A stretch of DNA of 36,966 bases from an uncultured Bacilli bacterium (lineage in GTDB: Bacteria > Bacillota_I > Bacilli_A > RF39 > UBA660): NCBI GenBank assembly GCA_947625005.1, contig CANQNA010000002.1, positions 1-36,966 of the forward strand, in the 5' to 3' direction. A model generated the notes under the pieces. The model had not been told where the DNA came from. It made no database searches and saw only the letters and a program-made list of their open reading frames with translations. Positions 4,340 to 23,676 of the stretch are shown here, one piece after another. The position numbers were made by a program, and so were the translations under genes. Position 1 is the first letter of the stretch; the number at the start of each line of letters is the position of its first letter.

Positions 4340-4348
4340 AAATCCCCC

Positions 4349-5203: not shown

Positions 5204-5215
5204 AATTTCCCCTTT

Positions 5216-6344: not shown

Positions 6345-6376
6345 TTTTAAATTCCTCCCTTTTTTAAACTAACCGA

Positions 6377-6405
6377 ATTATATCATTTTTATTTTTTTTA
6401 TGCAA
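6377..6405 (-). promoter_or_regulatory. Sigma-A promoter of the LPYTG-sortase operon
   Basis: On the minus strand, -35 TTGCAT (6405-6400) and -10 TATAAT (6382-6377) are separated by exactly 17 bp. It starts about 30 bp before the GGGAGGAA ribosome binding site. The same arrangement recurs upstream of the paralogue at 7057-7085. Confidence 0.85.
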
Positions 6406-6457
6406 TAGTTTTTTTGAATTTTCTACTTATAATTTTTAAAATTTTTTTGCAATAAAT

Positions 6458-6500
6458 AAAAAAGTAGATATTATACAAATAATAATAACTACTTTTTTTT
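6458..6500 (-). terminator. Terminator after the LAYTG gene
   Basis: Minus-strand hairpin: arms AAAAAGTAG plus TTATTAT pair with ATAATA plus CTACTTTTT, followed by T-rich sequence. It separates the upstream paralogue from the promoter of the LPYTG-sortase operon, so the upstream gene is monocistronic. Confidence 0.8.
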
Positions 6501-6512
6501 ATTTAAAAATGA

Positions 6513-7025: not shown

Positions 7026-7056
7026 CTTTTTCCCTCCTTTATTCTTTTATGTGTAT

Positions 7057-7085
7057 ATTATATCATTTTATTTTTTTTTATACAA
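7057..7085 (-). promoter_or_regulatory. Sigma-A promoter of the LAYTG gene
   Basis: Minus strand: -35 TTGTAT (7085-7080), 17-bp spacer, -10 TATAAT (7062-7057). The spacer is nearly identical to the one at 6377-6405, as expected for a duplicated gene. Confidence 0.85.
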
Positions 7086-7154
7086 TAGTTTTTTTAATTT
7101 TTCTTTATTTTTGAAATTTATATGAGTTTAATTATAAAACTATCAATTATATAA

Positions 7155-7367
7155 AAAATAAAAATCTCTTAGCTAAATTGAGAGACTTTTATTTTAAAAA
7201 CAATTATACTAATTTTTTTTTGCTACTAATATAACAGCTAATCCAATTGCCATAACTGAAGAAATAATTACAAGTATATTTACATTATTTCCTGTATAAA
7301 CAAGTTTATCTGCTGAAGTAGCTACTTCAATTAGTTTTCCATCTTTGTATACTTCAATTCCATCAGC
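7155..7367 (-). repeat. Direct repeat DR-left: LPXTG gene 3' end plus terminator
   Basis: This matches 21428-21638 in the same orientation, at roughly 80 percent identity by eye, including the shared AAAATC.CT..GCTAAA.TGAGAGA hairpin just outside the gene end. The terminator hairpins of the intact paralogues do not match, so these two copies are the closest pair. They bracket module B, the switch and the recombinase, about 14.3 kb in all. Confidence 0.7.
7160..7195 (-). terminator. Terminator hairpin downstream of the LPXTG fragment
   Basis: AAAATCTCT and AGAGACTTTT form a stem around TAGCTAAATTG, flanked by A and T tracts. It probably also ends transcription of module B coming from higher coordinates. 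Confidence 0.7.
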
Positions 7368-7490
7368 TGAATAACTTAATTCCACTCCTGCTATTTCTGC
7401 TGCTTGGGTTGCTAAGTTTCTTAAGTTTTTTTTAAATTTTCTTTATCTGATTTTTAGTTTTTTATGATATTTCATTAGTAATTTATTTAT
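7204..7490 (-). pseudogene. Broken LPXTG mini-protein, C-terminal part only
   Basis: Translating the minus strand gives ATQAAEIAGVELSYSADGIE, then VYKDGKLIEV, KLVYTGNN, a hydrophobic span and KKKLV before the stop at 7204. This is the same C-terminal half as the two intact paralogues. Upstream, a run of eight A's at about 7428 breaks the frame (nine would restore it), and the signal peptide and N-terminal domain are absent where the acyltransferase gene begins. The sorting motif would read LVYTG. It has no start or promoter, so it is a relic. Confidence 0.75.
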
Positions 7491-7494
7491 TTCA

Positions 7495-8592
<1,098 letters not shown>

Positions 8593-8603
8593 CTTTTTTC
8601 CTT

Positions 8604-9285
8604 TCAATATTTGTTATTATTTCGTATATTTTCTAAATATTTATTAATGTCATACATTGAAATCAATTGTTCTTCTAATTGTTTCTCTGTTAAATTCCAC
8701 CATTTTTCTTTTAATAATTGTAATTTTTCAATTTCTTCTTTTTTAAATCTATATCTTATATGTCTTGCTGGATTGCCTACTACTATACTATATGGCTCTA
8801 CATCTTTTGTCACAACACTACACGCTCCAATTACTGCTCCATCTCCTATTGTTACCCCTCTTTTTATAAAAGCGTTTAATGCTATCCAAACATCATTGCC
8901 AATCTTAGTAAACTCTTCAGATTTTCCAATATCACATTGATATTCTTCCTTTTCTTTAATTCCTAGTTTTTTTCTCCATATTGGATTATACATAAAAGGA
9001 TGAGTTGATATATTAGACATTTCATGTTCTCCTGGTGCAATTTGCACATTTGGTGCTATTGAACAAAATTTACCTATCTTTACATTTGAATAAATTGAAG
9101 TATTTGAACTTATATATGTACAATCACCAATTGATATATTATTTTCTAGGGACACTTCCCCCCCTTATAATGCAATTTTTACCTATAACTATATTTTTTC
9201 CTATTTTATATGTCTTTATAATAGTTTTATTTTTCATGTATTTACATTTATTTAAAAGATATTTAATTTTCATTTTAAGTTTCAC
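8604..9285 (-). CDS. Phase-variable hexapeptide-repeat O-acetyltransferase (reads OFF)
   Basis: Left-handed beta-helix acetyltransferase of the CatB/XAT-like group. It has hexapeptide turns ([32 protein letters not shown]), the loop [33 protein letters not shown] and the family end [13 protein letters not shown]. The obvious start is GTG 9285, overlapping the upstream glycosyltransferase stop, or ATG 9273. Reading from either, a G7 tract (9158-9164) shifts the frame and a stop follows after RKG-type residues. With six G's the reading becomes [16 protein letters not shown], a perfect hexapeptide continuation, giving 226 residues. As sequenced, only a GTG at 9155 inside the helix could start the rest (183 residues), probably not a stable enzyme. 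Confidence 0.82.
9158..9164 (-). repeat. G7 slippage tract, OFF state
   Basis: Seven G's on the coding strand between the codons for IIR and EVSLENN. Six or nine G's put the gene in frame. Runs of G are very rare in this AT-rich window, so retention of a G run here is notable. Confidence 0.85.
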
Positions 9286-10181
9286 TTTATTAATTTTTCC
9301 TTTCTCTTTTTATATGTATACCCCATATTATTCCTAATGGATAACCAATTATTGTATATATTCTTCCGCTTCCCTTGTTTTAGTTTCCTTTTCTTTTTTA
9401 AAACATATGAATTACCAACATAATGAACTGCTTGTTTAAGTTTATGAATTTTTGTCGCATTAGGTATTTCTAAAATTACTTTCGCAAATTCTATATTTCC
9501 ATTGGGATTTTTAAAATAGTCATCTCTAAAGTGATAGCTTAATCCATCTTCTAAATATTCAACAATACATATAATTTCGTTTAAAATATTTAATTCACAT
9601 ATTTGATCAATTAAATAATATTTGCAAGCAGACGAAACAACCTTTTCTCCTTTAGTTATTTTATATTTAAATTTTTTTGTTAATTCAGTTCTATAAATTA
9701 ACTTTTTATCTCCATGAACATTGTTTTTAAAATATAAATCATATATTTTTGATGTTTTTATATCAGTAGGCATTTTGGTTCCAACTATTTTTCCATTTTT
9801 GTAAGCATCTAATGCTATTATTCCAGCAGTAGTATTTTTATTGCATTTATCCCATTTTTTTAAAATAATTTCTATTGCATTATCAACTAAATAATCATCT
9901 GAATCAACACACATATTAAGTTCTGTGTCAATTACATCATAAGCGGTATTGTGTGCTCCACACATTCCTTGGTTTTCTTGATATATGTAAATAATATTTA
10001 TTTTGTTTTCTTCTTTCCATTTGTTTACTAATTCTCTTGTATTATCTGTAGAACCATCATCTACAATAAGCCACTTAAATTTTTTTACTGTTTGTTTTAA
10101 TAGTGACTTATATAAATTTTCTAATATATAACCTCTATTATATGTTGGCGTAAATATCGTTATCGGTACATCTTCGTACAT
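9282..10181 (-). CDS. Glycosyltransferase family 2
   Basis: Cytoplasmic inverting GT-A transferase that adds a sugar to the lipid-linked repeat unit. It opens with VPITIFTPTYNRGYILENLYKS. The nucleotide-binding VDDGSTDNT and metal-binding DSDDYL motifs are present, and a C-terminal basic region (KKKRKLKQGKRKN) follows. The ATG at 10181 has GGAGG at the correct distance, so I prefer it to ATGs at 10196 or 10187, which overlap the ribosome binding site. The stop TGA overlaps the GTG start of the acetyltransferase. The sugar is not predictable. Confidence 0.9.
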   Translation of the reverse strand: MYEDVPITIFTPTYNRGYILENLYKSLLKQTVKKFKWLIVDDGSTDNTRELVNKWKEENKINIIYIYQENQGMCGAHNTAYDVIDTELNMCVDSDDYLVDNAIEIILKKWDKCNKNTTAGIIALDAYKNGKIVGTKMPTDIKTSKIYDLYFKNNVHGDKKLIYRTELTKKFKYKITKGEKVVSSACKYYLIDQICELNILNEIICIVEYLEDGLSYHFRDDYFKNPNGNIEFAKVILEIPNATKIHKLKQAVHYVGNSYVLKKKRKLKQGKRKNIYNNWLSIRNNMGYTYKKRKEKLIK

Positions 10182-10196
10182 TTTCATTTCCTCCAT

Positions 10197-11615
10197 CTAA
10201 TCAACTGTTCTTTCTATTTTTAAATTTATATTTTTTAATATATATCTATAATTCATTATAAAATAAACTATACTTCCTATTATGATTTGAGTTATTATTA
10301 ATATTATTTTATTATCAATAATTTTTTGAAATGATATTACTATTAAATACATTATCAATCCTGATATAACAAATCTTATAGAAGATTTTATATCTTTTTC
10401 TATTTCAAGCTCATCTTTGACTACATAAGTTTGATAAAACATAACAACTAATTCAGCAAAAATTGTTCCTATTACAGCTCCAAGTGAATTATACTTTGGA
10501 ATTAATATGCTATTTAATATGATATTTATTATAGCTCCAATAAATACAGAAATTATATATTGTTTATCCTCTTCTTCTGGAACTAAATATTGCGTTCTTA
10601 TTACATTAGCCCATGATTTAAATATTATAATTAAAGATAAATATTTTATTAATATCTCTATACCAGAAAAATCATTTCCAAAGAAAATCGGAGTAAAATT
10701 GTCAGTTATTGCAATAATTCCTAAGCACATTGGAATTGATAAAAACATCATAAATTCTAAAGATTTACTTATATATGCTTTTATTTTTTCTTTTTCTCCT
10801 TTAGCTACTAAGTTAGATATTCTTGGTAACATTATTGTTCCTAATGCTGTAATTATACAAGTTGGAAGATTTATAATCTTTTCAGCATTTTCATATAAAC
10901 CAACCTCCTTAGCATTTGTCATACTACCTAACATAATTTTATCCATAATATTGTATAAACTCACTGCTATAATAGGTATAAATAATATTAAATTCGGCTT
11001 TATGTGTTTTTTTATATCATTCCATGTAATCCTAACTAATGTAATATACTTTTTTAAAAATATCCATAATATACTTTGACTTATTAGTGAAGTTACCGCT
11101 AGAATAAAAATATATTTATACAAATCATTCCTATTTTTCACTAATATAAAAATACTTATTGTTGATATTATTTTTATTATCGTATTTCTTGTTACTGTTA
11201 ATTTAAATTCTTCTAATCCAAAAAACAACCAATTGATATCAAAACATATTGATATTAAATAAATTAATTGTATCATAGCATACATTTTATATTCATTTGT
11301 AAATTGAATATAAATACTATAGATAACAATTGATATTATTGAAGTTATTAATTGTAGCGCATATATTGATAAAAAAGTTTTTGATAGTTCTTTTTTATTA
11401 TCCCTAACTTTTGCAATACATCTATTTCCATAATTATTTATGCCTAACATTCTAAACAACATAAAATACTGCATAATTGAATATGTATATGAATATATTC
11501 CTATTCCTTCTGCTCCTATAACTCTCGATAGATATGGAGCTGTTATTAATGGTATAATTAATATTAATATTTGATAAGCTATGTTATATAAAAAGTTTTT
11601 CTTTATGCTACTCAT
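10197..11615 (-). CDS. Wzx-type flippase (module B)
   Basis: Polysaccharide exporter of the MOP/PST family that flips undecaprenol-linked repeat units. It has 472 residues, about 12-14 membrane spans, and the family start KNFLYNIAYQILILIIPLITAPYLSRVIGAEGIGIYSY region seen in Wzx proteins of Firmicutes, plus the conserved DKIMLGSMTNAKEVGLYENAEKI. Standard length. It lies between the wzy-like gene and a GT2 in the module B run. A second, only distantly similar flippase is at 25084. Confidence 0.93.
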   Translation of the reverse strand: MSSIKKNFLYNIAYQILILIIPLITAPYLSRVIGAEGIGIYSYTYSIMQYFMLFRMLGINNYGNRCIAKVRDNKKELSKTFLSIYALQLITSIISIVIYSIYIQFTNEYKMYAMIQLIYLISICFDINWLFFGLEEFKLTVTRNTIIKIISTISIFILVKNRNDLYKYIFILAVTSLISQSILWIFLKKYITLVRITWNDIKKHIKPNLILFIPIIAVSLYNIMDKIMLGSMTNAKEVGLYENAEKIINLPTCIITALGTIMLPRISNLVAKGEKEKIKAYISKSLEFMMFLSIPMCLGIIAITDNFTPIFFGNDFSGIEILIKYLSLIIIFKSWANVIRTQYLVPEEEDKQYIISVFIGAIINIILNSILIPKYNSLGAVIGTIFAELVVMFYQTYVVKDELEIEKDIKSSIRFVISGLIMYLIVISFQKIIDNKIILIITQIIIGSIVYFIMNYRYILKNINLKIERTVD

Positions 11616-11636
11616 AAACTTTTACCTCATTTTTAT

Positions 11637-12761
11637 TTAAAAAGATTTTTTTATTTCATTTATATTTTCCTCATTATCATTTTTAAATTCAGCAATTACT
11701 GCTAAGCAAACAAAATATCCAAACACATTTAACCAAATTAAATTTGTTTCAAAATATCCTACTACTATCATTCCAATAATTCCTGCAAAAGCTATATCAC
11801 TATTTTGAGTTGTCCTTTTAGCATTAATTGATTTTAAAAAATGTAAAAACATAAATATAAAAAACAAAAAATTTATGCCACCATATATTGTAAGTATAGC
11901 AAATAATGAATTATGTACATTTAATTTGTCTTGATCTTCAAATTTAAAATTTGATCCTACACCATACATTGGCTTTTCTTTAAATTCTCTTAGTATCTTA
12001 CTCCATATAACCTGACGTCCTGAGTAAAAATTTTTATCAGAATAATCTATTTGTACTTTTATATTATTATTCCACATATATACATATATTAAAGGAAATA
12101 TTATACTACCAATTACTATGGCATAAACAATGATATTTATAACACTTTTATATTTTACAAATTTTAATATAAATAAAAATAATATAAATACAAAAAAACC
12201 TAACAAAGATCCTCTAGATTCTGTTTGATACATTAGTATAAAATTCATAATTAATATTAATAAGTAAAATAGTTTTAAACTTTTTTTATTAGATTTTATA
12301 TTATTAAAAAATATAACTGTAAATACAGACATTATAAAATACCTATATCCTAAAGTATTAGGATTATAATATTCTTTTGGCATTAATAAATATATAAATT
12401 GTACTACAAAAAAAGTGGATATAATAATATTTAATATTTCTTTTCTAACATAAATTTTATTATAAAATATTATTAGTATATACAAATCAATCATTGTTAA
12501 TAAACTACCAAATCCTGTATTATTTATTAAAGAACCTACTATAAGATTAATAAAAATAATTGCAATTCCTGCAATCGCTCTATCTGATAATTTATTAATA
12601 TTTAGAATAAATATTAATATAATCATAATACTAATTATAATTAAAGAGTATCCACCAATTATAGAATATATATACGGATGTATATACATAATAGCATAAT
12701 AAAAACATATAAATAGTAGTATATATTCGCTTATTTGAATTTTACTTTTTTTATATTCCAT
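11637..12761 (-). CDS. Wzy-like O-antigen polymerase (module B)
   Basis: Multi-span membrane protein with about ten membrane segments and the large loop with VHNSLFAILTIYGG typical of O-antigen ligase/polymerase (Wzy_C) proteins; GSRG-like residues occur in TESRGSLLGFF. It would polymerise module B repeat units on the outer face of the membrane. The start at ATG 12761 is preceded by AAGGAG; an adjacent ATG at 12764 overlaps the stop of the GT4 gene. The assignment to Wzy rather than a ligase follows from the flippase next door and the Gram-positive setting. Confidence 0.87.
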   Translation of the reverse strand: MEYKKSKIQISEYILLFICFYYAIMYIHPYIYSIIGGYSLIIISIMIILIFILNINKLSDRAIAGIAIIFINLIVGSLINNTGFGSLLTMIDLYILIIFYNKIYVRKEILNIIISTFFVVQFIYLLMPKEYYNPNTLGYRYFIMSVFTVIFFNNIKSNKKSLKLFYLLILIMNFILMYQTESRGSLLGFFVFILFLFILKFVKYKSVINIIVYAIVIGSIIFPLIYVYMWNNNIKVQIDYSDKNFYSGRQVIWSKILREFKEKPMYGVGSNFKFEDQDKLNVHNSLFAILTIYGGINFLFFIFMFLHFLKSINAKRTTQNSDIAFAGIIGMIVVGYFETNLIWLNVFGYFVCLAVIAEFKNDNEENINEIKKSF

Positions 12762-12763
12762 CA

Positions 12764-13739
12764 TTACTCCTTTGTACATATATCAAAAAGTTTTTTTGCT
12801 TCATTCTTCCAACTATATTTTTCATAGTCTTCAATATAATTTATTTTTTCATCTTTTTTAATGTATATTTTATTTATTTTTTCCGATATCTCATTAATAT
12901 CTGTATTATCATTTATTATCATATCTTCATCTAAGTTTTTAATAATTGATAAAGCTCCTATGTGTTTAGATAATAAAATTTTACAATTACAAGCAATTGC
13001 TTCACATACTGCTAGTCCAAATGTTTCAAAAGAACTATTTTGTATATATAAATCAGATTGTTTCATTTTTTCTATTACCTCATTATGTTCTAATTTTTCA
13101 TGATATTCTACGAAACTATATTTTTTAATTTGTTCTCCATATTCACTTTTGGGACCAATTACTATAAATTTTATTTCTATATCTTTAATTTTATCAATTG
13201 CTTTACAAATATTTAAACCGCTTTTTACGGGGGTTCCCCCCCCCGACTGAAATAATAGTAAATAACCCTTTTTCTTTTTTTTCTTTATTCCTAAAGTATA
13301 TTTTATCTATTCCATTATTAACAAATTCTATTTTATTACTAAATTGTGGTAATTCTTTTTTTAGATATTTAGAAAAGTATTCAGAAACACAAATTATTTT
13401 ATCTACTTTTTTTAATAACTTATATTCTATCTTTAAATTGTTTACATTCGGATTATTTTGATATTTTTGTTCTTCTTTTAGATATCCGTGCATTAAGTAA
13501 ATTACTTTTTTCCCAAAGAATTTGGATATATATGCAAATAAATAATTCAGCTTTGAAAATCCAGATATTATAATATTTTTTGATAATGGTAAATGTATAA
13601 AAAAGTGTATAATTCTTATTATCTTATTATTAGTGAAACAAAATGTAGTTGTTTTCTCAAAAAATGCTCTATAATTTTTATTAACAATAGCAGGGCCTGT
13701 AGTGCCTATCATATCTCCAACCCAATATATTTTTTTCAT
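12764..13739 (-). CDS. Phase-variable glycosyltransferase family 4 (reads OFF, frameshifted)
   Basis: GT-B retaining transferase interrupted by a frameshift. The first part (13739-13203) has the N-terminal domain with LMHGYLKEE, DKIICVSEYFSKYL and NNGIDKIYF, and ends SVGGGNPRKKRFKYL then stop. The second part (readable from 13202 down to 12764) has SDLYIQNSSFETFGLAVCEAIACNCKILLS, the C-terminal nucleotide-sugar site with its E(x7)E. The frame breaks exactly at a G9 run. With eight G's the junction reads SVGGGTPVKSGLNICKAIDK, matching the usual GG..P.KG loop, and gives 324 residues. ATG 13739 overlaps the preceding GT2 stop (ATGA), so the intact form is translationally coupled. The present sequence is the OFF form or an assembly slip. 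Confidence 0.85.
13236..13244 (-). repeat. G9 slippage tract, OFF state
   Basis: Nine G's on the coding strand, followed two bases later by five C's, in the GT4 gene. Eight G's restore the frame (also 5 or 11). It is the longest G run in the window and sits at the conserved Gly-rich loop of the enzyme. Confidence 0.9.
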
Positions 13740-14542
13740 TTTATATTTTCCTCTTTTTTGTACTTTCTTACTCCCTGAAACATATATTCAATCAATTCTA
13801 ACATTGTTATTTTTTCTTTATATATATTTCTTTTTCTTATTGCAAATTGTAAAATTAATAATGGATACAGCTTTTTTGATATTTCATAATATACTACTCC
13901 TTGTATATTATAGTGTTCCTCAGTTTGTTCTCTACTCCATGTTGATTTTTCATCTTTATACAAAGTAGCAATCTTCTTTGGTATATAATAAATTTTTAGT
14001 CCTTTTCTTAAACACTCTGCTAAAAAAATATTTTCTTCTCCGAATTCATATTTTGCACCCGCTCCAAAGTTTTCTTTAAATTTTATTTCTTTTTCAATTA
14101 TACTTTTCCTTTTAAAAGTTATTTGTACAGAAGATATTTTCATACTTTTAAATAAATTTATTTTTCCTTCTTTCAATATCTTTTTTCTTTTAGCTTTCTC
14201 TTCATTATCTACATCAAAAACTATTATATCTGCATCAACATATTTCTCATAAGCATCTAAAACTATTTTTTTTAAGTTCTTTTCATAATACATATCATCA
14301 TCTGATATTAAACATATATCTGAACTAGCATTTTTAATAGCTATATTTCTACTTTTACTTAGCCCTTTTTCATGATATGATAAAAACTTCATATTTTTTT
14401 TCATATGTTTTTTTGGTAATTCTATATTGGTATTAGGGATTTGATTAATTATAATATATTTATCTAATATCTTCATTTTGCTAATCAATTCTTTACTATT
14501 ACTTTGATTCATAGTGGAAATTAATATTTCTATATTTTTCAT
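13736..14542 (-). CDS. Glycosyltransferase family 2
   Basis: GT-A transferase of 268 residues. The opening IEILISTMNQSNSKELISKMKI and GLSKSRNIAIKNASSDICLISDDDMYYEKN show the GT2 fold with a DDD metal site; FGAGAKYEFGEENIFLAECLRKG is a typical acceptor-side motif. It lacks the common VPxYN start, as in the subgroup seen next to GT4 genes in EPS clusters. Its stop overlaps the ATG of the phase-variable GT4 downstream. Confidence 0.88.
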   Translation of the reverse strand: MKNIEILISTMNQSNSKELISKMKILDKYIIINQIPNTNIELPKKHMKKNMKFLSYHEKGLSKSRNIAIKNASSDICLISDDDMYYEKNLKKIVLDAYEKYVDADIIVFDVDNEEKAKRKKILKEGKINLFKSMKISSVQITFKRKSIIEKEIKFKENFGAGAKYEFGEENIFLAECLRKGLKIYYIPKKIATLYKDEKSTWSREQTEEHYNIQGVVYYEISKKLYPLLILQFAIRKRNIYKEKITMLELIEYMFQGVRKYKKEENIK

Positions 14543-14554
14543 TTTATATCTCCA

Positions 14555-15511
14555 TTATATAAATTTAGATAGTAACCTTGTTATATAATAATTTCTAAAT
14601 ATTGTTTCTAATACAATAAATGACTTAATTTTTCCATATTCATTTCTAAAACTATTTAAACAATATTTATTTTTTTTATATATTTGTATTTTCTTTTTAT
14701 ATTTTATATACAATTCTTTATCAGAATTATAACCAGCTACCAATAGCATTTTTAACATATTATAAAAAATACTATATTGAAAAAAGCTTGACCATTTGTC
14801 TTCTAAATCTGTATTTTTAATGATATCCAATTTAATAATTGCTTTTTCTACGCATTTTTCATGCCAAGCAACATTTTCAAAACTAGAACTCAAGCTTTTT
14901 TGACCGACTCTATAATTATATAGTTCTTTATTAATTGTAACTATTTTTTCTGTTTTTATCAAAGCTATTGTATAAGCTGATTCCCCTATTTTGTCTAACA
15001 ATTCTATTATATTTATTTTTTCTAAATAACTTTTTTTTACAATTTTATTCCATAATAAATTATTCTTATTTACAAATTTGTCATCTACAATTCCTTTATA
15101 TTCATTAAACCATTTCTTTTTATTTTTGACACTTTTAGGATAAAACTTATAGTTGCATATAACAATATCAGCATTTTTATCAATTGCATTATTATATAAT
15201 TCTTCATACATATTGTTTTCTAAAAAATCATCATTATCTACAAACCCAATGTACATACCTGTTGCTACTTTATATCCCTCTATTCTTGCTACTATTGGTC
15301 CTTTGTTTTCTTGTGATATTATTTTTATATTATTATTTATTTTAGCTAATTCTTTTGCTATTTGTAAAGAATTATCTGTTGAACCATCATTTACAATTAT
15401 AATTTCTATTCCATCAATTGTTTGATCTAAGATAGATTTAATACATTTACTTAAGTATTTTTCAGCATTATATACTGGAACTATGACAGATATCTTGTAT
15501 TTTTCTTTCAT
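14555..15511 (-). CDS. Glycosyltransferase family 2
   Basis: Classical GT2: KISVIVPVYNAEKYLSKCIKSI at the start, EIIIVNDGSTDNS for nucleotide binding and VDNDDFLENNMY for metal. The 318-residue protein has a C-terminal extension of helices common in EpsJ/WfgS-like enzymes. In VDNDDF the DxD appears as DND. It is in the contiguous module B run, 21 bp from tagD. The sugar is unknown. Confidence 0.9.
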   Translation of the reverse strand: MKEKYKISVIVPVYNAEKYLSKCIKSILDQTIDGIEIIIVNDGSTDNSLQIAKELAKINNNIKIISQENKGPIVARIEGYKVATGMYIGFVDNDDFLENNMYEELYNNAIDKNADIVICNYKFYPKSVKNKKKWFNEYKGIVDDKFVNKNNLLWNKIVKKSYLEKINIIELLDKIGESAYTIALIKTEKIVTINKELYNYRVGQKSLSSSFENVAWHEKCVEKAIIKLDIIKNTDLEDKWSSFFQYSIFYNMLKMLLVAGYNSDKELYIKYKKKIQIYKKNKYCLNSFRNEYGKIKSFIVLETIFRNYYITRLLSKFI

Positions 15512-15532
15512 ATTTTATACTTTTACCTTTCT

Positions 15533-15964
15533 TTAAATATTAAGTATTTTATTAATATCGTTTTCATTTGCTTGTAAGCCAAGTTCTTTTTTTATTTTAG
15601 TTGTAGAAATTCCTTCTGTTCTGTCCAAATATCTAACTTCACAGAACTCTTTTAAATAATCAAACTTATCACTTCCTGCCCAATCTGATCCCATAACTAC
15701 TATATCTACTTTATATTGTAAAATATCATCCTTTTTCTGTTCCCAGCAAGTTTCTGGTATTACTAAATCTACATATTTAATTGCTTCTAACATTTTCTTT
15801 CTTGTTTCAAAATCATGATATGCTTTCTTTTCCTTTAATCTATTAAACTCATCCGTAGATAATGCCACTATTAAATAGTCCCCTAACTCTTTTGCTCTTT
15901 TTAGAAATCTTATATGACCATAGTGTAGTAAATCAAATGTTCCATATGTTAAAATTCTTTTCAT
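15533..15964 (-). CDS. tagD: Glycerol-3-phosphate cytidylyltransferase TagD
   Basis: Makes CDP-glycerol from CTP and glycerol-3-phosphate. It starts KRILTYGTFDLLHYGHIRFLKRA, with the HxGH nucleotidyl-transfer motif, and ends with the family signature RTEGISTTKIKKEL. The 143-residue length is close to B. subtilis TagD (129) with a short C-terminal addition. It is 10 bp from the CDP-glycerol transferase gene, so the two supply and use CDP-glycerol within module B. Confidence 0.93.
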   Translation of the reverse strand: MKRILTYGTFDLLHYGHIRFLKRAKELGDYLIVALSTDEFNRLKEKKAYHDFETRKKMLEAIKYVDLVIPETCWEQKKDDILQYKVDIVVMGSDWAGSDKFDYLKEFCEVRYLDRTEGISTTKIKKELGLQANENDINKILNI

Positions 15965-15974
15965 TTTTATTTCC

Positions 15975-17126
15975 TCACTTTATAATATTATCTATATATT
16001 GTGTCGCATTTCCATATACTTCTATATATTTTTCTTTAAATTTTCTTGTTTTTATGCATTCTTGTTCATAATTACAACTTAATATTTTTTCCAATAAATC
16101 ATCTTCTGTTTTGCATATTCCATTTGGTAATTCCTTAGTTATATCTATGTATATTCCTCTTTCTTTTATATATTTTTCATAATCATAAGCAAATGAATAA
16201 ATTGGTCTTTCTAAAATTGAAAAATCAAAAATCACGCTAGAATAGTCTGATATTAACACATCTGATATCTTTAATAAATCATTTAGATATTCATAGTTAG
16301 AAACATCACAAATAAAATCATCGTTTTTAATTTTTAAAATTTTATTTATTTCATAATGTGCTCTAAATAATAAAATATAATCATCTTGTAATTTTTTCTT
16401 CCATTTTTGAATATTTATTGGAGGTGATATGTATGTTTCTCCTTTATTTTTATCATACTCTCTAAAAGTTGGCATATACATTATAATTTTTTTATTTGGT
16501 AGTATATTTAATTTATTTATAATTTTTTCTTTATCTGAGTCAGATATTTTCTTACTTAGTTCATCATTTCTCGGTAATCCTACTAGAACAAATCTTTCTT
16601 TTTCTATTTCAAAGGCACTAGAAAGCGTTTTTATATCATATTTTCCTTGTGCATACATTATATCTGGTTTAGTTGTATTAAATTTACAAAGATTATTTTG
16701 TTGATCTTTTCCTAGTTTTTTTATTGTTGTACCATGCCATGTATTAATATATATTGTTTTTTTGTTTTTAAATTTTAACCCTCTTTCTATTCCTGAATTA
16801 GTTATCCAATAAGTAGCTTTCAATGCAATTACAAAATATCTTATGCTATTATTTTTTAATTTTTTTCCTTTTTTTAATTCATATTTCTCAGGATTGTCAA
16901 AACTCCAATATATTTTGTAATTATTATATTTATTATTATTTATAATGTATTCATATATAGCTCTTGTACTGTCATCAAATCTTTGTCCTCCAAAACAGTT
17001 AAATAATATTATATTATCCTTAACATGTATAAAAATTTTACAAAAATTGATAATAAAATTAAAAAATAACCTATAAATACTATAAAATATTTTATTATCC
17101 TTCAATAATATTTTTAATTTGTTCAC
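15975..17126 (-). CDS. CDP-glycerol glycerophosphotransferase (TagB/TagF family)
   Basis: Transfers glycerol phosphate from CDP-glycerol to a sugar or growing chain at the membrane. Family motifs are visible: YINTWHGTTIKKLGKD, ARG-region LVGLPRNDEL, NKKIIMYMPTFREYDKNKG, FRAHYEINK and the SDYSSVIFDFSILERPIYSFAYDYEKY block, with catalytic His residues in WHGT and RAHYE. At 383 residues it has the catalytic domain only, as in TagB-like primases or capsule-modifying enzymes, not the long TagF polymerase. I take GTG 17126 as start; it lies 2 bp after the upstream stop. With tagD it suggests a phosphoglycerol-decorated polysaccharide. Confidence 0.92.
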   Translation of the reverse strand: MNKLKILLKDNKIFYSIYRLFFNFIINFCKIFIHVKDNIILFNCFGGQRFDDSTRAIYEYIINNNKYNNYKIYWSFDNPEKYELKKGKKLKNNSIRYFVIALKATYWITNSGIERGLKFKNKKTIYINTWHGTTIKKLGKDQQNNLCKFNTTKPDIMYAQGKYDIKTLSSAFEIEKERFVLVGLPRNDELSKKISDSDKEKIINKLNILPNKKIIMYMPTFREYDKNKGETYISPPINIQKWKKKLQDDYILLFRAHYEINKILKIKNDDFICDVSNYEYLNDLLKISDVLISDYSSVIFDFSILERPIYSFAYDYEKYIKERGIYIDITKELPNGICKTEDDLLEKILSCNYEQECIKTRKFKEKYIEVYGNATQYIDNIIK

Positions 17127-17128
17127 AA

Positions 17129-17884
17129 CTAAATTCTTCTCCTTACAGCGTTTACAGCATAAAAAATGAAATTATATAAACTGTAGAAAATATTTAAATT
17201 TTCCTGTTTTATATATAAATTCCATATTCTTTTTATTGCATTAAACTTATTAGATGACAAAGTTCCTTTCATTCTTCTATAATATGTTAAGTTTTCATTT
17301 AATCCATAACCTTCATATCCACTTTTTAGAACTTTCCACCATGTTGCAGTATCTTCACTTTTAATATTTGGCATTTGTATTAATTCTTTTCCTAATTTAT
17401 CAACATTAAAAACAACTGTAGATGTAAAAATTGTAGTATTCTTTAAAGCTTGTTTATAATTTATCTTTTTAGGTACTTTAACTATTTTTCCCGTTTTATT
17501 TCCTTCTTTATCTGAAAATTCATAATCTGTAAATGTAAAAATATATTTGTTTTCTTTCATAAACATAATTTGCTTTTCTAATTTTTCTTTTGCCCATAAA
17601 TCATCTGCATCTAAAAATGCAATATATTTTCCATTGCTCTGTTCCATTCCTATATTTCTTGCTATTGCTACACCAAAATTTGTTTTTAGATTTAATAATT
17701 TTATTCTTCCATCTTCTTTTGTGTATTGCTTAATTATTTCTGAACTCCTATCTGTTGAGCAATCATTTACAAGTATCCATTCCCAATTTTCATAAGTTTG
17801 CTCTTGTACCGTTTTTATGGTTTCTTTTATAAATTTTTCACTATTATATACTGGTGTGATTATACTAACTAAATCTGTTTCCAT
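17129..17884 (-). CDS. Glycosyltransferase family 2
   Basis: Compact 251-residue GT2 with VSIITPVYNSEKFIKETIKT, EWILVNDCSTDRSSEII and AFLDADDLWAKEKLEKQ, plus the C-terminal SEDTATWWKVLKSGYEGYGL motif of the WaaE/EpsE-like transferases that work early in repeat-unit assembly. It is the second gene of module B after the initiating sugar transferase, so it probably adds the second sugar. Confidence 0.92.
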   Translation of the reverse strand: METDLVSIITPVYNSEKFIKETIKTVQEQTYENWEWILVNDCSTDRSSEIIKQYTKEDGRIKLLNLKTNFGVAIARNIGMEQSNGKYIAFLDADDLWAKEKLEKQIMFMKENKYIFTFTDYEFSDKEGNKTGKIVKVPKKINYKQALKNTTIFTSTVVFNVDKLGKELIQMPNIKSEDTATWWKVLKSGYEGYGLNENLTYYRRMKGTLSSNKFNAIKRIWNLYIKQENLNIFYSLYNFIFYAVNAVRRRI

Positions 17885-17941
17885 TTACTATACCCCTATA
17901 TCCTAATATTTTTTATTAACTTCAATTTTAATAATTTCCTT

Positions 17942-18589
17942 TTATATTACTTTGTTATATGTACTTTCATCTATCTTTATTTTTTGAATTTTTAATTCTC
18001 TTATTTCTTCCTTAATTCCATTTTCTGTGATTTCTGCATCTGCTTTAGAAAATACAGTTTTTATCGTTTCTATCATCAACTTAACATCTTGTTTAAAGCT
18101 CATATTATCAATATATTGCAAATCATATTCTATTTTTTTAAATATATTTATCCCATTTCTGCCTTTAACTTGTGCCAGGCCAGAAATTCCAGGTAATATA
18201 TCAACTCTTCTTTTTTGTTCATCTGTAAACCATTCATAATACTCTGGTATCCAAGGTCTTGGTCCTATAAAGCTCATTTCTCCCTTAATTATATTTATCA
18301 ATTGAGGCAATTCATCAAGGCTTGTCCTTCTAATAAACTTTCCAACTTTAGTTACCATCTCATCATGTGATAAATTGCTATTTAATTCTTTTCTCTCTGT
18401 CTTCATAGATCTAAATTTATATGCATTGAATTCTTTTAATCCCTTTCCCATTCTTTTAGATTTATATATAATAGGTCCTTTATCTTCTACTTTTATACAA
18501 GTTGCTATAATAATCATTGGAATGGCAAATATAATTAATAATATTATTGCTAAAATTAGGTCTATGCCCCTTTTTATTTTTATGTACAT
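17942..18589 (-). CDS. Undecaprenyl-phosphate sugar phosphotransferase (module B initiator)
   Basis: Monotopic PglC/WcaJ-type phosphoglycosyl transferase that starts repeat units by moving a sugar phosphate to undecaprenyl phosphate. It has an N-terminal re-entrant hydrophobic helix (about 9-32), then KGPIIYKSKRMGKGLKEFNAYKFRSM, the catalytic region RRTSLDELPQLINIIKGEMSFIGPRPW and LPGISGLAQVKGRN. At 215 residues it is the short catalytic form. It is the first polysaccharide gene after the TnpB-like gene, and a second initiator exists at 35445, so modules A and B each have their own. Loss of one would not silence the other. Confidence 0.94.
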   Translation of the reverse strand: MYIKIKRGIDLILAIILLIIFAIPMIIIATCIKVEDKGPIIYKSKRMGKGLKEFNAYKFRSMKTERKELNSNLSHDEMVTKVGKFIRRTSLDELPQLINIIKGEMSFIGPRPWIPEYYEWFTDEQKRRVDILPGISGLAQVKGRNGINIFKKIEYDLQYIDNMSFKQDVKLMIETIKTVFSKADAEITENGIKEEIRELKIQKIKIDESTYNKVI

Positions 18590-18690
18590 TGAATTTCATC
18601 CCTTTTTATATTTCTACTTGTTAAATCTACAAATATCTTGAATATTTTTACTTCTTTACTTATACTTGTATATTTTTTGCATATACTTTT

Positions 18691-18790
18691 ACATATAACG
18701 ATCGCGATATTCAACACAAATACATAAACATATAATTTATGTACTCACCTATATGTTTCCACACAGGATTTTGTTTTTATTTTATTTATC
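18691..18790 (-). ncRNA. Candidate guide RNA (omega-RNA-like) at the 3' end of the TnpB-like gene
   Basis: Two clean hairpins follow the stop codon on the minus strand. Hairpin 1 (18767-18748) has stem CCTGTGTG/CATATAGG closed by a GAAA loop, eight pairs including two G-U. Hairpin 2 (18743-18721) has stem TACATAAA/TTTATGTA and a 7-nt loop. They are followed by TTTGTGTTGA (18720-18711), then sequence that would be the guide, starting ATATCGCGATCGTTAT (18710-18695). TnpB guide RNAs are known to come from exactly this place, overlapping the gene end and the right transposon end. The boundaries, the guide start and expression are inferred. Confidence 0.5.
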
Positions 18791-20011
18791 ATTTGATTTA
18801 TTTAAACAAGCTAAACTTATATTCATTGCAGAATTAAAAAAATAATCTATTTCATGTTCATTTTCACACCTAACTTTAAGTTCATATTTATTTCTTTTTA
18901 TTAACCCATTGCATTTATAACACCTTCTTGCTGTGTCTTTTGAACTTACAGTTTTTATAAGTATGCTTTCTTTAAATGCTTTATATTTTAGATAATTGGT
19001 TATTTTCTTTCTTAAATATATTGGTGTATATTTTTTAATTTTTTTCTCATAGTAATTATTTCTTCCTGTTAAGTTTGCTATAGAAATTACTTGTACGTTG
19101 TTTTCTACACAAAAGTTTATAATTTTTCTGCTAACTTCATGTGCATAATATTCACTAATATTATGCAACTTTCTAAAACAATTTTTATGATCTCCTTCTA
19201 CCATTGTTAAATGCTTACTTTTACATTTATCTTTATAGATTTTTCCTAAAATTGCTTTAGTTCTGTGTCTGTACTCATCTCCACCTGAAATAAAAAGCGT
19301 CTTTAATAATTTCCCTTTGCTATCTATTACTGTACATATTGCAAAATTGTTACTATTAGAAAATGCGATTCCACAAACTCTTATATTTTCATCTTCTAAT
19401 CTGTATTTAATTGGTGTAATATTTTCTACAATTTGTTTTACAGGTATATGAGCCATAACATAATCTTTTTTTATTACTATTGTTGGAGATAAAGTTTCAA
19501 GTCCTTTTAGTTTTTCCCAATCTTTAAATTTTGCATCATACCATTTCCAGTCTTGTCCATTAAACAGTTTAATCTTAAATTTTCCATCATCTTGTATATC
19601 TTTATACATATCATTCCAATATGTCATTGGATAATTAAATTGTTTTGCTTTGCTTGGAGTTCCTATTTTTTCGTTATATTTTGAATTTTCTAAATTTCCC
19701 ATATACGTTTTTACTTCTTTAACAGCACAGGTTATTGCAGCTCTTCTTAAGCTTCTTGGACTATTGTTTTCAAAATATTCTTTTCCTTTTTCTCCTGTTT
19801 TGCTTATAATTGTAATTTTTTCCAATTTTTTTGCACATTCTCTACTTGGATAATCTAAAAATTCCTGATACTTAAATAATAGATTGTAATATTTTAATAC
19901 TAAGTCATTGTATATTTTTGTTGACAATTTTATATATTCTGAATAATTTGTATACAATCTTACCTTATAAGTTGTTATACAATATCCTTGTTTTTCAGTA
20001 TTTTTTAGCAT
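18782..20011 (-). CDS. Nuclease-dead TnpB-family protein (TldR-like candidate)
   Basis: A full-length TnpB-like protein of 409 residues, with N-terminal TYKVRLYTNYSEYIKLSTKIYND and a C-terminal zinc finger (CYKC at 364-367, C382, H386). All three RuvC carboxylates are gone. RuvC-I reads CGIAFSNSNNFAICTV (Ala 216 where GID has Asp), RuvC-II reads VISIANLTG (Ala 312 where E of IED/IEN is expected) and RuvC-III reads DYFFNSAMNI (Phe 391 where D of DxNAAxNI is expected). The frame is otherwise intact and the rest of the fold is conserved, so loss of catalysis without decay suggests selection for binding only. I place the start at ATG 20011 (GGAGAG ribosome binding site), not ATG 20035 inside the inverted repeat. 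No tnpA is present. It is the first gene leftward of the invertible segment. Confidence 0.85.
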   Translation of the reverse strand: MLKNTEKQGYCITTYKVRLYTNYSEYIKLSTKIYNDLVLKYYNLLFKYQEFLDYPSRECAKKLEKITIISKTGEKGKEYFENNSPRSLRRAAITCAVKEVKTYMGNLENSKYNEKIGTPSKAKQFNYPMTYWNDMYKDIQDDGKFKIKLFNGQDWKWYDAKFKDWEKLKGLETLSPTIVIKKDYVMAHIPVKQIVENITPIKYRLEDENIRVCGIAFSNSNNFAICTVIDSKGKLLKTLFISGGDEYRHRTKAILGKIYKDKCKSKHLTMVEGDHKNCFRKLHNISEYYAHEVSRKIINFCVENNVQVISIANLTGRNNYYEKKIKKYTPIYLRKKITNYLKYKAFKESILIKTVSSKDTARRCYKCNGLIKRNKYELKVRCENEHEIDYFFNSAMNISLACLNKSNDK

Positions 20012-20031
20012 TTTAACTCTCCAACTTTCTG

Positions 20032-20055
20032 TCATAAAGTAAGAAACTTTATGAT
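20032..20055 (+). repeat. Inverted repeat left (IRL), recombinase-site-like
   Basis: 24 bp identical in inverted orientation to 20281-20304. Internally it has arms TCATAAAGT and ACTTTATGA around the spacer AAGAA. Paired inverted arms with a short asymmetric spacer is the layout of tyrosine-recombinase core sites. It ends 21 bp before the TnpB-like start codon. Confidence 0.88.
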
Positions 20056-20062
20056 ATTGACA

Positions 20063-20105
20063 AAAAAAAGAAAAAAGCCAATAAAAAATTTGATATTTTT
20101 ATTGG
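20063..20105 (-). terminator. Leftward terminator inside the invertible segment
   Basis: On the minus strand CCAATAAAAA pairs with TTTTTATTGG (10 bp, 8-nt loop; 20105-20078) and is followed by CTTTTTTCTTTTTTTT. This is a complete rho-independent terminator. It would stop transcription from the leftward promoter at 20194-20222 before it reaches the TnpB-like gene. Confidence 0.82.
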
Positions 20106-20193
20106 TTTCCTATATTTATTTCATTATTTTTGATTAATTTATAACGTGTAGACAAATTATAAATTAAATATATATTTACTACACATGAATTTA

Positions 20194-20223
20194 ATTATAA
20201 TATATTTTACATAAAAAAAGTAA
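20194..20223 (-). promoter_or_regulatory. Weak leftward promoter inside the segment
   Basis: Perfect -10 TATAAT (20199-20194) with a poor -35 (TTACTT, 18-bp spacing). A transcript from here would form a GTGTAG/CTACAC stem (20184-20146) and then meet the terminator, giving a short RNA of about 120 nt. Confidence 0.5.
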
Positions 20224-20241
20224 AAAAAATGTAAAAAAATA

Positions 20242-20270
20242 TTGAAAAAAATTTTTTACTATGATAAAAT
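20242..20270 (+). promoter_or_regulatory. Strong rightward promoter inside the segment
   Basis: TTGAAA (20242-20247), 17-bp spacer, TAAAAT (20265-20270): one mismatch per hexamer to the sigma-A consensus. It ends 10 bp from IRR. As oriented it reads through IRR toward the recombinase gene at 20503; if the segment flips it reads through IRL into the TnpB-like gene. Confidence 0.75.
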
Positions 20271-20280
20271 AAATCTTGTA

Positions 20281-20304
20281 ATCATAAAGTTTCTTACTTT
20301 ATGA
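20281..20304 (-). repeat. Inverted repeat right (IRR), recombinase-site-like
   Basis: Exact reverse complement of IRL over 24 bp, spacer TTCTT on the plus strand. Homology stops sharply on both sides, as expected of recombination sites and not of a duplicated gene. Confidence 0.88.
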
Positions 20305-20305
20305 T

Positions 20306-20502
20306 ATTTTTTTATTGCTTATCCAGTTTAATTTTACATTTAAATTATTTTAATTCTTTAAATCCTCCATAACAACTATAAATTTTCTTGTAAATTAATA
20401 TATTATTTTTTTAATAATCTGGTAAATTAAAATAAATTTTATAATTATTACATTTTTTTAGCTTTTTTTGACAAATATATATTTATACGATGGAGGTAAA
20501 GT
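20306..20502. other. Recombinase leader region
   Basis: 197 bp between IRR and the recombinase start with no gene I can support. TTGACA at 20468-20473 has no usable -10, because that position falls on the ribosome binding site TGGAGG. So the recombinase probably depends on a promoter further left, the one in the segment being the best candidate. Confidence 0.5.
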
Positions 20503-21420
20503 ATGAGCATTTTAAAGAAAATAATTTCACTAAAAAAAGTATCAGATGATTGGCTTTTATTTAAAAAGATTTCAATAAAAAACTCTACTTATTGCAGATA
20601 TAAGTATATTATCGAAACATATATACTATCTTATTTTGGAAATAAAAATATATACTATTTTGAAAAATATGATTTTAACATCTATATTAACTACCTATCT
20701 AACTCACTTTCAGCTAAAACAGTAAAAGATATTTTATCTGTTTTCAAATCTATATTGCAATATACACAAAGAAAATATAATACTAATTATATGTTAGATC
20801 TAATATCAATCCCAAAATGTGAACAATATGAAATACAAATATTGAAAGATAATGAAATAAAAAAACTAGAGCAATACTGTTTAGAAAGCAATAATTTAAA
20901 AAATATAGGAATTGTTATTTGTTTAAATACTGGTTTGCGTTTAGGCGAAATTTGTGCATTGACCTGGAACGATATAAATTTGAAAGAAAATGTTTTTATT
21001 ATAAATAAAACTATGCAAAGATTATACAAAGGTAAAGGAGATACTGCTATTCAAATTAGTAGCCCTAAAACAAAAAACTCTACTAGAAAGATACCTATAT
21101 CAAAAAAATTACTTATTATTCTAAAATTATTACAGAGGGTTAATCAATATTCTGGAGATGAGTATTTTCTAACAGGTTGCAAAAAATTTATAGAACCTCG
21201 AAATTATTATGATTCTTTTAAAAAGTGTTTAAAAATATGTAATATTCCTAATTATAAGTTTCATATTTTGAGACATACTTTTGCAACTAATTGTATAAAA
21301 ATTGGTATGGACGCTAAATCTCTAAGTAAAATTCTGGGTCATTCTGATGTTAATATAACTTTGAATAGGTATGTGCATTCATCTTATACTACTCAAAGGA
21401 AATTCTTGAATAAGTTATAG
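20503..21420 (+). CDS. Tyrosine site-specific recombinase
   Basis: Cuts and rejoins DNA at short paired sites. It is 305 residues, the XerC/D-like or DNA-invertase size, with an N-terminal SAM-like core-binding domain (about 8-95) and the catalytic domain after it. Catalytic residues are visible: Arg 146 in NTGLRLGEICALTW, Lys about 189-191 in SPKTKNSTRKIP, His 254 and Arg 257 in HILRHTFATN, His 280 in ILGHSDVNIT and Tyr 290 in LNRYVHSS. It has TGGAGG at the start. It is the only large plus-strand gene in the window and lies beside matching inverted sites. No tRNA or phage genes are near, so a local inversion role is more likely than phage integration. Confidence 0.92.
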   Translation: MSILKKIISLKKVSDDWLLFKKISIKNSTYCRYKYIIETYILSYFGNKNIYYFEKYDFNIYINYLSNSLSAKTVKDILSVFKSILQYTQRKYNTNYMLDLISIPKCEQYEIQILKDNEIKKLEQYCLESNNLKNIGIVICLNTGLRLGEICALTWNDINLKENVFIINKTMQRLYKGKGDTAIQISSPKTKNSTRKIPISKKLLIILKLLQRVNQYSGDEYFLTGCKKFIEPRNYYDSFKKCLKICNIPNYKFHILRHTFATNCIKIGMDAKSLSKILGHSDVNITLNRYVHSSYTTQRKFLNKL

Positions 21421-21429
21421 AAATGAGAA

Positions 21430-21468
21430 AATAAAAATCCCTCGGCTAAACTGAGAGATTTTTATTTT
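21430..21468. terminator. Bidirectional terminator between recombinase and LPXTG fragment
   Basis: AAAAATCCCTC.G and CTGAGAGATTTTT form a stem around GCTAAA with A-rich and T-rich flanks on both sides. It would end recombinase transcription from the left and module A read-through from the right. Confidence 0.75.
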
Positions 21469-21475
21469 AAAGCAA

Positions 21476-21637
21476 TTATGCTAATTTCTTTTTTACTACT
21501 AATGTTACAGCTAATCCAATTGCTATAACTGAAGAAATAATTACAAGTGTATTTACATTGTTTCCTGTATAAGGTAATGTATTTGATTCTGTAACACTTT
21601 CAATTAGTTTTCCATCTTTGTAAATATCAATTCCATA
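21476..21637 (-). pseudogene. LPXTG mini-protein fragment, C-terminal 53 codons
   Basis: The minus strand encodes GIDIYKDGKLIESV, TLPYTGNN, a hydrophobic span and KKKLA before a stop, matching the intact paralogues at 5826 and 6513. Sequence upstream of about 21638 is unrelated, so the signal peptide and main domain are missing. It is a truncated copy without a start. Confidence 0.75.
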
Positions 21638-21739
21638 CAATCAAATTTTTTTACAATGTTGCTTTTAATTTTTAACTAACCTTTTATTTATAAATTTTTT
21701 ATCTCGTTAATACATTCTCTTATTATACTATTTAAATAT

Positions 21740-22553
21740 TTAATAAATATATGAACTTAAATGTTGTCCCGCATTGCAATGTACAATTTCTCCTGAAATA
21801 CACTTACTATAATCACTAGCTAAAAATAGAACTGTTTCTGCAACTTCTTCTGGTATAAAAAATCTACCTGCTACATTTTCAGCATACAAGTCTCCTTCTT
21901 TGTTTATACCTGTCATATTACTAGCAGTTACTCCGAGGTGCAACTGCATTTACTCTAATTCCTGCTTGATAAAACCTTCTTGATAATCCTCTCGTTAAAC
22001 TGTTAATTGCGACTTTAATTAATCCATAAGGTAGATCATCACATTTATTCCCTCTTTCAGATGAAATAAATATTATATTTCCTTGTGCATTGTTTTCTTT
22101 TAATTTTTTTATATAATTTTTACTTAAGAAATAACTACCTTTAAGGTTTATTGAAAACTGTTTATCAAAATTTTCTTCCGTTACTTCTAGTATATTACTT
22201 TCATGTAGTGAAATTCCAGCATTATTTATAAGTATATCAATTCCACCATATTTATTGTATATTTCATCTAATATATTTTTGCCTTTTTTAATATCAGAAA
22301 TATCCCAGCAATAATATACTGTATTATCTCCAATCTTTTCGTATGCTTTTTTCAAATTTTCTTCATTTCTTCCTGTAATTATTACTGTAGCACCTTCTTG
22401 ATGTAATTTTTTAGCTATATAATATCCTAATCCCAAGCTCCCCCAGTTACCATAATTATTTTTTCTTTTAAAATATCACTAGCTTTTTTTTGCACTATTT
22501 CTGCTTTTATTATTTGTGGTTTATGCTCTTATACGATATATTATATTCCTCTT

Positions 22554-22560
<7 letters not shown>
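21740..22560 (-). pseudogene. Short-chain dehydrogenase/reductase, broken by three frameshifts
   Basis: The pieces together give an SDR: IIMVTGG, then GLGYYIAKKLHQEGATVIIT (Rossmann TGxxxGxG), LINNAGISLHE, ISSERG with the Ser, YGLIK (YxxxK) and the C-terminal FLASDYSKCISGEIVHCNAG. Frame breaks occur near 22525-22545, at a G5 run (22440-22444, where six G's give VTGGSLGLGYY) and at 21936 (one extra base; removing it gives NAVAPGVTASNMT). Three separate breaks, two outside any repeat, indicate decay and not phase variation. An original role in sugar or lipid modification for module A is possible. Poor assembly here is the alternative. Confidence 0.75.

Positions 22561-23676
<1,116 letters not shown>

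Follow-up and report, generated by a model that had tools for sequence, protein, structure and literature searches.

A predicted promoter inverton ahead of a polysaccharide operon headed by a nuclease-dead TnpB-like protein and a conserved structured RNA

Introduction

What does a nuclease-dead relative of TnpB do at the head of a polysaccharide operon, next to a promoter that appears to be invertible? The question is raised by a locus on contig CANQNA010000002.1 from an uncultured Bacilli bacterium (GenBank assembly GCA_947625005.1), of which positions 1 to 36,966 were analysed; this whole stretch of 36,966 nucleotides is called the window. Coat polysaccharides determine how phages and the immune system recognise gut bacteria, and Bacteroides fragilis has invertible capsule promoters and several capsule loci per genome. 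A sequence-only reading of the window had proposed an invertible promoter with its own tyrosine recombinase upstream of a capsule module. The analysis described here favours a promoter inverton that drives a polysaccharide operon which also encodes a TldR-like ribonucleoprotein (RNP); a probability of about 0.72 is given to this reading.

Results and Discussion

Inverted repeats and related loci

Two arms of 24 nt each, 100% complementary, enclose 225 nt upstream of the tnpB-like gene (Table 1), as the sequence-only reading had stated. Each arm consists of TCATAAAGT + AAGAA + ACTTTATGA (+T), so that 9-bp inverted half-sites flank an asymmetric 5-bp spacer, and the spacers of the two arms lie in opposite orientation; this layout, which the sequence-only reading had described, was confirmed from the arm sequences. 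Chance origin of the repeats was rejected. When the whole window was dinucleotide-shuffled 60 times, the longest perfect inverted repeat within 1.5 kb measured 17 (mean 15.1). Shuffling of the local 2.4-kb region gave at most 20, and 6 of 1000 shuffles reached at least 18, against the 24 observed.

Related loci, 27 in number, were obtained from one scan of GTDB contigs, many of which are broken at the switch; 26 come from Clostridia metagenome-assembled genomes (MAGs) named Lapin (read as rabbit) and one from roe deer cecum. Site pairs were found upstream of tnpB in 20 of the 28 loci (the window and 19 relatives), 16 by pattern (window included) and four by inverted-repeat search (L003, L015, L022, L023). 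The eight loci outside this count have just 1–1312 bp of upstream sequence; one site only was seen in L001, L008, L009, L020 and L024, and none near tnpB in L025–L027. The central 7 bp were identical within the locus in 16 of 16 pairs examined, although the arms differ in seven of these, and just 4 of 120 pairs of loci have the central 5 bp in common, as recombination across the spacer requires. The sequence-only reading had named divergence of the repeats as grounds for abandoning the switch, and the spacers have instead stayed identical even where the arms have drifted. A further candidate, terminators mistaken for recombination sites, was rejected because termination does not explain spacers that match within loci and not between them.

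Flipped segments, which had been proposed as something to look for in relatives, are present. Between L013 and L016, loci from two MAGs, collinearity extends from the proximal site across tnpB (88% identity). Their site-bounded segments match at 81% identity with one of them reversed, and no alignment of the far flanks was obtained over the 4 kb compared.

Promoter, terminator and state of the switch

Promoter and terminator calls are consensus matches throughout. The near-consensus promoter that had been placed at one segment end, facing the recombinase, was found there, and is not significant alone, with 164 promoter-like sites in 5000–21900 against 160 expected. All 16 loci scanned have an outward promoter close to one segment end (the four pairs from the inverted-repeat search lay outside the scan), compared with 0.51 expected from shuffles; the range of positions was set after first inspection, which somewhat flatters this contrast and tells against the switch to that extent. 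It is directed away from tnpB in 12 loci, toward tnpB in three (L006, L013, L017) and in both directions in L002. By eye, L022 was judged ON. Of the terminator predicted for the other segment end, the hairpin and T-tract are there, but a GC-demanding scan, which misses AT-rich hairpins, does not flag them.

Opposite orientations, matching spacers and promoters that point both ways among the loci all support inversion, the outcome that had been predicted. The relatives thus argue strongly for it, and the element is almost certainly a tyrosine-recombinase promoter inverton, to judge from the sequences compared. The window would represent the OFF state, in which the promoter faces the recombinase and the terminator guards the operon. 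It is improbable that the window repeats are no longer recombined and the switch is locked: among the loci compared, the window alone combines a short segment with a recombinase immediately beside it, and the flipped orientation is known from relatives only, but neither arms nor spacer show any decay and the recombinase open reading frame (ORF) is intact.

Recombinase

A complete tyrosine recombinase about 200 bp from the repeat had been reported, and the distance from the right repeat to the start of the gene is 198 bp. In its protein the tyrosine-recombinase motif R..H-x-x-R..H..Y was spotted by eye. The enzyme presumably acts on the two core sites. To call it the switch's own is apt in the window, where it adjoins the segment, but not in the relatives generally, since it lies inside the segment in 10 of them and on another contig in others. 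Segments of about 1.1–1.3 kb with the recombinase gene inside occur in 10 loci and segments of about 130–290 bp without it in 10.

Eight genomes were searched with the window recombinase, all of them drafts except G678, so that linkage past contig ends is possible. Genomes G001, G199 and G302 have short-segment loci without an adjoining recombinase; on another contig each carries a homologue, at 63–69% identity. G003 and G299 likewise carry a homologue, and G678 carries eleven at 26–34%. At E 1e-15 none was found in G296 and G297 (two of the eight, both drafts); the G296 locus, L011, has just 105 bp beyond its far site.

Five loci in one genome

The single-contig genome G678 (4.42 Mb), probably a Eubacterium because its protein starts resemble those of relatives so named, holds five dead-tnpB loci (L145–L148 and L181). 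The first four each precede a run of polysaccharide genes and L181 an aminotransferase-like gene (by eye). All five are preceded by a pair TCGCAGACT-N6-AGTCTGCGA, 355–362 bp apart and with matching spacers. This pattern, which was made from these very sites, occurs 11 times genome-wide with zero mismatches (five pairs and one solitary site) and 13 times with up to two mismatches, where the reversed control gives 4. L147 has its segment the other way round from the remaining four, and an extended −10 promoter that reads into its tnpB was seen by eye, though the consensus scan did not pick it; one of the five loci, L147, looks ON.

Further sites were noted outside these loci. The solitary site (G678:C1:2284599) and a further pair at G003:C37:12552-12736, both sites of which have one mismatch, are possible TnpB-free or decayed invertons. 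At G678:C1:800957-802518 two sites with two mismatches flank a recombinase homologue (801083-801982), perhaps as a self-inverting locus. Motifs TGGTCA/TGACCA, repeated inside the segments of L145–L148 (by eye), are possible sites for a regulator or a recombination factor.

The dead TnpB/Cas12f-like protein

The label "TnpB-like gene" of the sequence-only reading was sound with regard to the TnpB/Cas12f fold and domain, which are supported, but incomplete: the protein has lost its nuclease site and comes with a conserved RNA. Structures of dCas12f (9n9c/9n9m) are among the fold matches, and it is from these matches only that this protein, alike in fold and in its nuclease-dead name, is known here. 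The first ATG of the ORF (20035) falls inside the repeat; the likely start at 20011, behind GGAG, is outside the segment.

Among 5.8 billion proteins searched, 231 relatives of the TnpB-like protein were found; in the 120 that were listed, no acidic residue occupies any of the three RuvC positions. The same catalytic loss is found down to 30% identity, and most tnpB copies are open. An active IS200/IS605 TnpB nuclease was rejected as a candidate, the RuvC triad not being intact. The protein is present in 10 of 292 genomes sampled in the family, all already among the genomes of the scan, and in 4 of 391 in a class sample, one being G001 and two (G367, G395) weak partial matches with no convincing RNA match (best E 2.8). 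Phages and plasmids yielded no close dead TnpB with P0077 as query; a viral scan gave no match with a single protein and, with an alignment, one distant partial match (L028, left uncounted). L020 and L021 each have, behind the first TnpB-like gene, a second one (2697-3911 and 3790-5004, respectively) accompanied by a further copy of the RNA; the second gene of L021 matches no NCBIfam model, and its kinship was judged by eye only.

The structured RNA

The conserved RNA lies behind tnpB in the window and most loci, and ahead of it in L014, L017, L018 and L022. Its structure, drawn in part from the tested sequences, combines a pseudoknot with four helices. Pairing holds in 93.2% of cells, and both partners vary in 24 of the 35 pairs. 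On each of five structure measures all 500 shuffles fall short, and sliding of the partners cuts pairing to 31–55%. With the covariance model, 29 full copies and one partial copy were found in 20 of 20 genomes, which had been chosen for holding the family. By comparison with the loci by hand, all full copies but one adjoin a TnpB-like gene or fragment (28 of 29), and the 29th begins 177 bp from a contig end. Rfam searched over 18000–21500 returned three weak matches far below the cut-offs, none at the RNA and no family below E 0.45. In G678 the model matches L145–L148 at E 2e-7 to 3e-6 and a fifth copy was seen by eye; the pseudoknot strands there are TAGCAC/GTGCTA, as against GAATAT/ATATTC elsewhere (by eye), and all five RNAs have the same 3' end. 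Behind the scaffold, groups of loci share 14–18 nt and then diverge sharply, in the manner of guides; the window shares 12 nt with L004 and L026.

On these sequences the dead TnpB and the conserved RNA very probably form an RNP, in which the RNA may guide the protein. A decaying IS200/IS605 passenger, with the RNA as a relic of the right end, would also combine a TnpB fold with an RNA beside the gene and would fit the stops seen in 4 of 15 matched stretches. It is very hard to credit, given that most copies are open, that the catalytic loss is kept to 30% identity, that the RNA covaries strongly and has moved yet stayed conserved, that the position in the operon is constant, and that guided_TnpB gave a match over its cut-off in none of 20 genomes.

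The polysaccharide operon

Polysaccharide genes start at 18589 and run downward in coordinate; 7495–18589 presumably forms one operon. Within 7495–17884 an individual Pfam match is given for 17129–17884 only (glycosyltransferase 2), the other genes being named by eye. Of the 26 ORFs taken from 25 loci as the first downstream with a length of 90 aa or more, 22 encode a bacterial sugar transferase; aminotransferase and Polysacc_synt_2 matches are among the others. In this count L008 gave two ORF pieces, the ORF after the second TnpB-like gene was taken for L020 and L021, L005 and L007 have no such ORF, and L023 ends inside tnpB. Among the next 66 ORFs the most frequent families are glycosyltransferases (PF00534, 17 of 66) and sugar-nucleotide enzymes, among the 25 of 94 families listed.

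Proposed mechanism and guide searches

In the preferred reading the tyrosine recombinase would act on the two core sites and invert the DNA between them. As sequenced, the promoter would point away from the operon, which the terminator guards (OFF); once flipped, it would read across 20032 through the dead tnpB and the RNA into the polysaccharide genes (ON). In that state an RNP would be made, which may serve as an RNA-guided, TldR-like transcription factor on other surface loci and help to ensure that a single coat is expressed at any time. The placing of a dead TnpB and a conserved RNA at the operon head suggests such RNA-guided control of the coat. The fuller proposal, that in Clostridia inversion selects one polysaccharide operon whose dead TnpB RNP, with a new RNA family, silences or tunes competing surface loci, is tentative and rather less likely to be right than wrong. 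RNA-guided DNA binding as the function of the RNP is, in our analysis, evenly balanced; the odds given for the inverton, for RNP formation and for RNA-guided binding are rough and were set by eye.

Guide targets were sought at 12–16 nt; a TldR can work with a 6-nt guide, so that shorter targets are possible. With two mismatches allowed, 16-nt guides gave, outside their own genes, 9 matches against 4 reversed in G001–G004 and 2 against 2 in G005–G007. The 12-nt seed AAAGGCRGTARA gave 13 exact matches (5 of them known RNAs) against 12 reversed. An opposite trend was found for the 12-nt seed AGAGATGCCAAA with one mismatch in G005–G007, which gave 55 matches (3 known RNAs) against 10 reversed; this excess was put down to coding bias, an explanation that is unproven, and the inspected 12-nt seed matches lie almost all in open frames. 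Two seed sites common to homologous ORFs of two genomes (L069/L076 and L073/L074) were ascribed to conserved coding, likewise unproven. Of 25 one-mismatch matches inspected in G678, four lie between ORFs, and the L004 guide has a 12-nt match inside an ileS-like ORF. Guide prefixes over the whole locus averaged 7.52 against 7.29, with 48 of 200 controls as high. The related loci themselves yielded no target either. Because no guide target was identified, we can only infer RNA-guided control.

The main rival to this reading accepts the inverton and lets the dead TnpB act in cis on the nascent operon RNA, as a leader-bound elongation or antitermination factor. In Bacteroides, UpxY/UpxZ stand at the head of capsule operons, and the NusG paralogues UpxY and LoaP do an operon-head elongation or antitermination job elsewhere. 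The RNA does lie in sense ahead of the polysaccharide genes in the loci examined, and the five RNAs of G678, alike at their 3' ends, have no other exact site in the genome. Set against this are the TnpB/Cas12f fold and domain, the single weak sense-strand terminator in 5000–21900 (in a scan that misses AT-rich hairpins like that at 20105), and the shared post-scaffold block of 14–18 nt that ends as sharply as a guide would. The protein at the operon head is TnpB/Cas12f-like. The cis mechanism is considered unlikely.

A role of the RNP in recombination rather than transcription, as a directionality factor or a silencer of the switch, would account for the linkage to invertons in 20 of 28 loci (the rest being cut or short upstream) and in five of five loci in G678. 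Guide matches inside the segments are only 4–8 nt long, however, and invertons are not normally known to need a factor of this kind; this role is thought quite improbable.

Several results weigh against the preferred reading of a switched operon with a TldR-like RNP. Both orientations were seen in relatives only, and the idea of one locus ON at a time rests on very few genomes. In the alignment, the two Eubacterium-type proteins have one E close to the second RuvC column, one place on (P0077), and the stops in 4 of 15 matched stretches mean that some tnpB copies are broken. In seven draft genomes 16-nt guides matched perfectly only at their own RNA genes. A 12-nt stretch common to the five G678 RNAs has no further exact site in G678; with up to one mismatch it has 31 sites, among them the five RNAs, and its reversal 38. 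Guide matches in viral contigs (3 against 10 reversed) show no enrichment. Own-locus guide prefixes averaged 5.43 against 4.55, with 7 of 500 as high, in a control that mixes base compositions.

Comparison with known systems

The hin/csrA-tldR/flagellin system is, by our comparison, the closest precedent; hin encodes a serine recombinase. Walker et al. 2026 (PMC13418256) describe, from the gut Clostridia Oscillibacter and Flavonifractor, hin-associated csrA-tldR loci in which promoter segments of about 120 bp invert; their guides cross-target fliC and still work when as short as 6 nt. The loci described here resemble them in a dead TnpB with an adjacent RNA, in surface-structure loci, several per genome, in an invertible promoter and in a recombinase next door. 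They differ in a tyrosine recombinase, often inside the segment, and in polysaccharide operons, where the precedent has hin, flagellin and CsrA, and also in that no target was identified; no csrA was noticed at these loci, without a profile search for it. The fliC-associated TldR (Wiegand 2024, as reported in PMC13418256) is similar with respect to the TnpB superfamily, the dead nuclease, the RNA and an alternative surface structure alongside, and unlike in that its guides hit an identified promoter.

For capsules, inversion toggles the cps1 locus of Akkermansia (PMC13343947), and this inverton and the B. fragilis loci share with the arrangement proposed here capsule loci, several per genome, that are switched by inversion; the word TnpB is absent from the main text of the Akkermansia paper. 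The RecV switches of Clostridioides difficile include site-specific inversion upstream of the flgB operon. According to the abstracts on RecV, in which no mention of a dead TnpB was seen, inversion in a gut species of Clostridia is the common feature, whereas RecV serves switches of flagella and of other traits. As a difference from dCas12f, neither a sigma factor nor a CRISPR array was noticed beside the window locus, though no search was aimed at them.

A literature search for TnpB, capsule and invertible promoter together found none, and the literature searched shows invertible promoters joined with RNA-guided TnpB-derived regulators for flagellin only. What appears to be new is an inverton-switched polysaccharide operon headed by a nuclease-dead TnpB and a structured RNA without an Rfam match at the locus. 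A dead TnpB clade with a covarying, relocated RNA makes a good case of a transposon nuclease turning regulator, and a family defined by protein, RNA, sites and five loci in one single-contig genome is directly testable.

Other features of the window

Table 1. Features of the window, with positions counted from its first letter (., no strand).
Feature	Position	Strand	Basis or remark
Inverted repeat, putative recombinase core site, tnpB side	20032..20055	.	TCATAAAGT-TTCTT-ACTTTATGA on −; same site type in related loci
Inverted repeat, putative recombinase core site, recombinase side	20281..20304	.	Repeat search, spacer comparison
Predicted invertible segment, here in OFF orientation for the capsule operon	20056..20280	.	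Repeats, promoter scan, flipped relatives
Putative outward promoter TTGAAA-17-TAAAAT, extended −10 (TG before −10), now toward recombinase	20242..20270	+	Consensus match only
Terminator-like hairpin (20105-20078) and T-tract, tnpB end, toward TnpB-like gene	20060..20105	−	Sequence
Nuclease-dead TnpB/Cas12f-like protein, 409 aa from ATG 20011 (ORF open to 20035)	18782..20011	−	Domain and fold match, homologue alignment
Conserved structured RNA, omega-RNA-like scaffold	18639..18772	−	84.9 bits, E 4e-16; copy part of the model's own input
Variable 3' region of the RNA, putative guide AAGATATTTGTAGATTTA	18622..18639	−	12 nt at its start in common with L004 and L026
Initiating bacterial sugar transferase, first gene of polysaccharide operon	17942..18589	−	PF02397, E 5e-61
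Rest of polysaccharide run (glycosyltransferases; flippase-, polymerase- and acyltransferase-like)	7495..17884	−	Mostly by eye
Tyrosine recombinase, 305 aa, just outside segment	20503..21420	+	Phage_integrase, E 6e-27
Inverted repeat with T-run behind recombinase, terminator-like	21428..21468	+	Repeat search, terminator scan

Between the two polysaccharide modules, 21464-21640 (−) encodes a C-terminal LPXTG-like fragment that resembles the proteins of 5826-6344 and 6513-7025, the former just under the Pfam anchor cut-off; it may be a trace of a duplication or of a module insertion. At the end of the upstream module an SDR-like gene is split over frames (21700-22560, −) and is probably a pseudogene. 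Perfect dinucleotide repeats, (GT)14 at 8515-8542 and (TG)17.5 at 23601-23635, lie near the starts of the acyltransferase-like ORFs (by eye) 7495-8607 and 22554-23645 and encode HTHTHT runs; they are likely to place coat acylation under slipped-strand phase variation, which would be a second type of switch in the same clusters.
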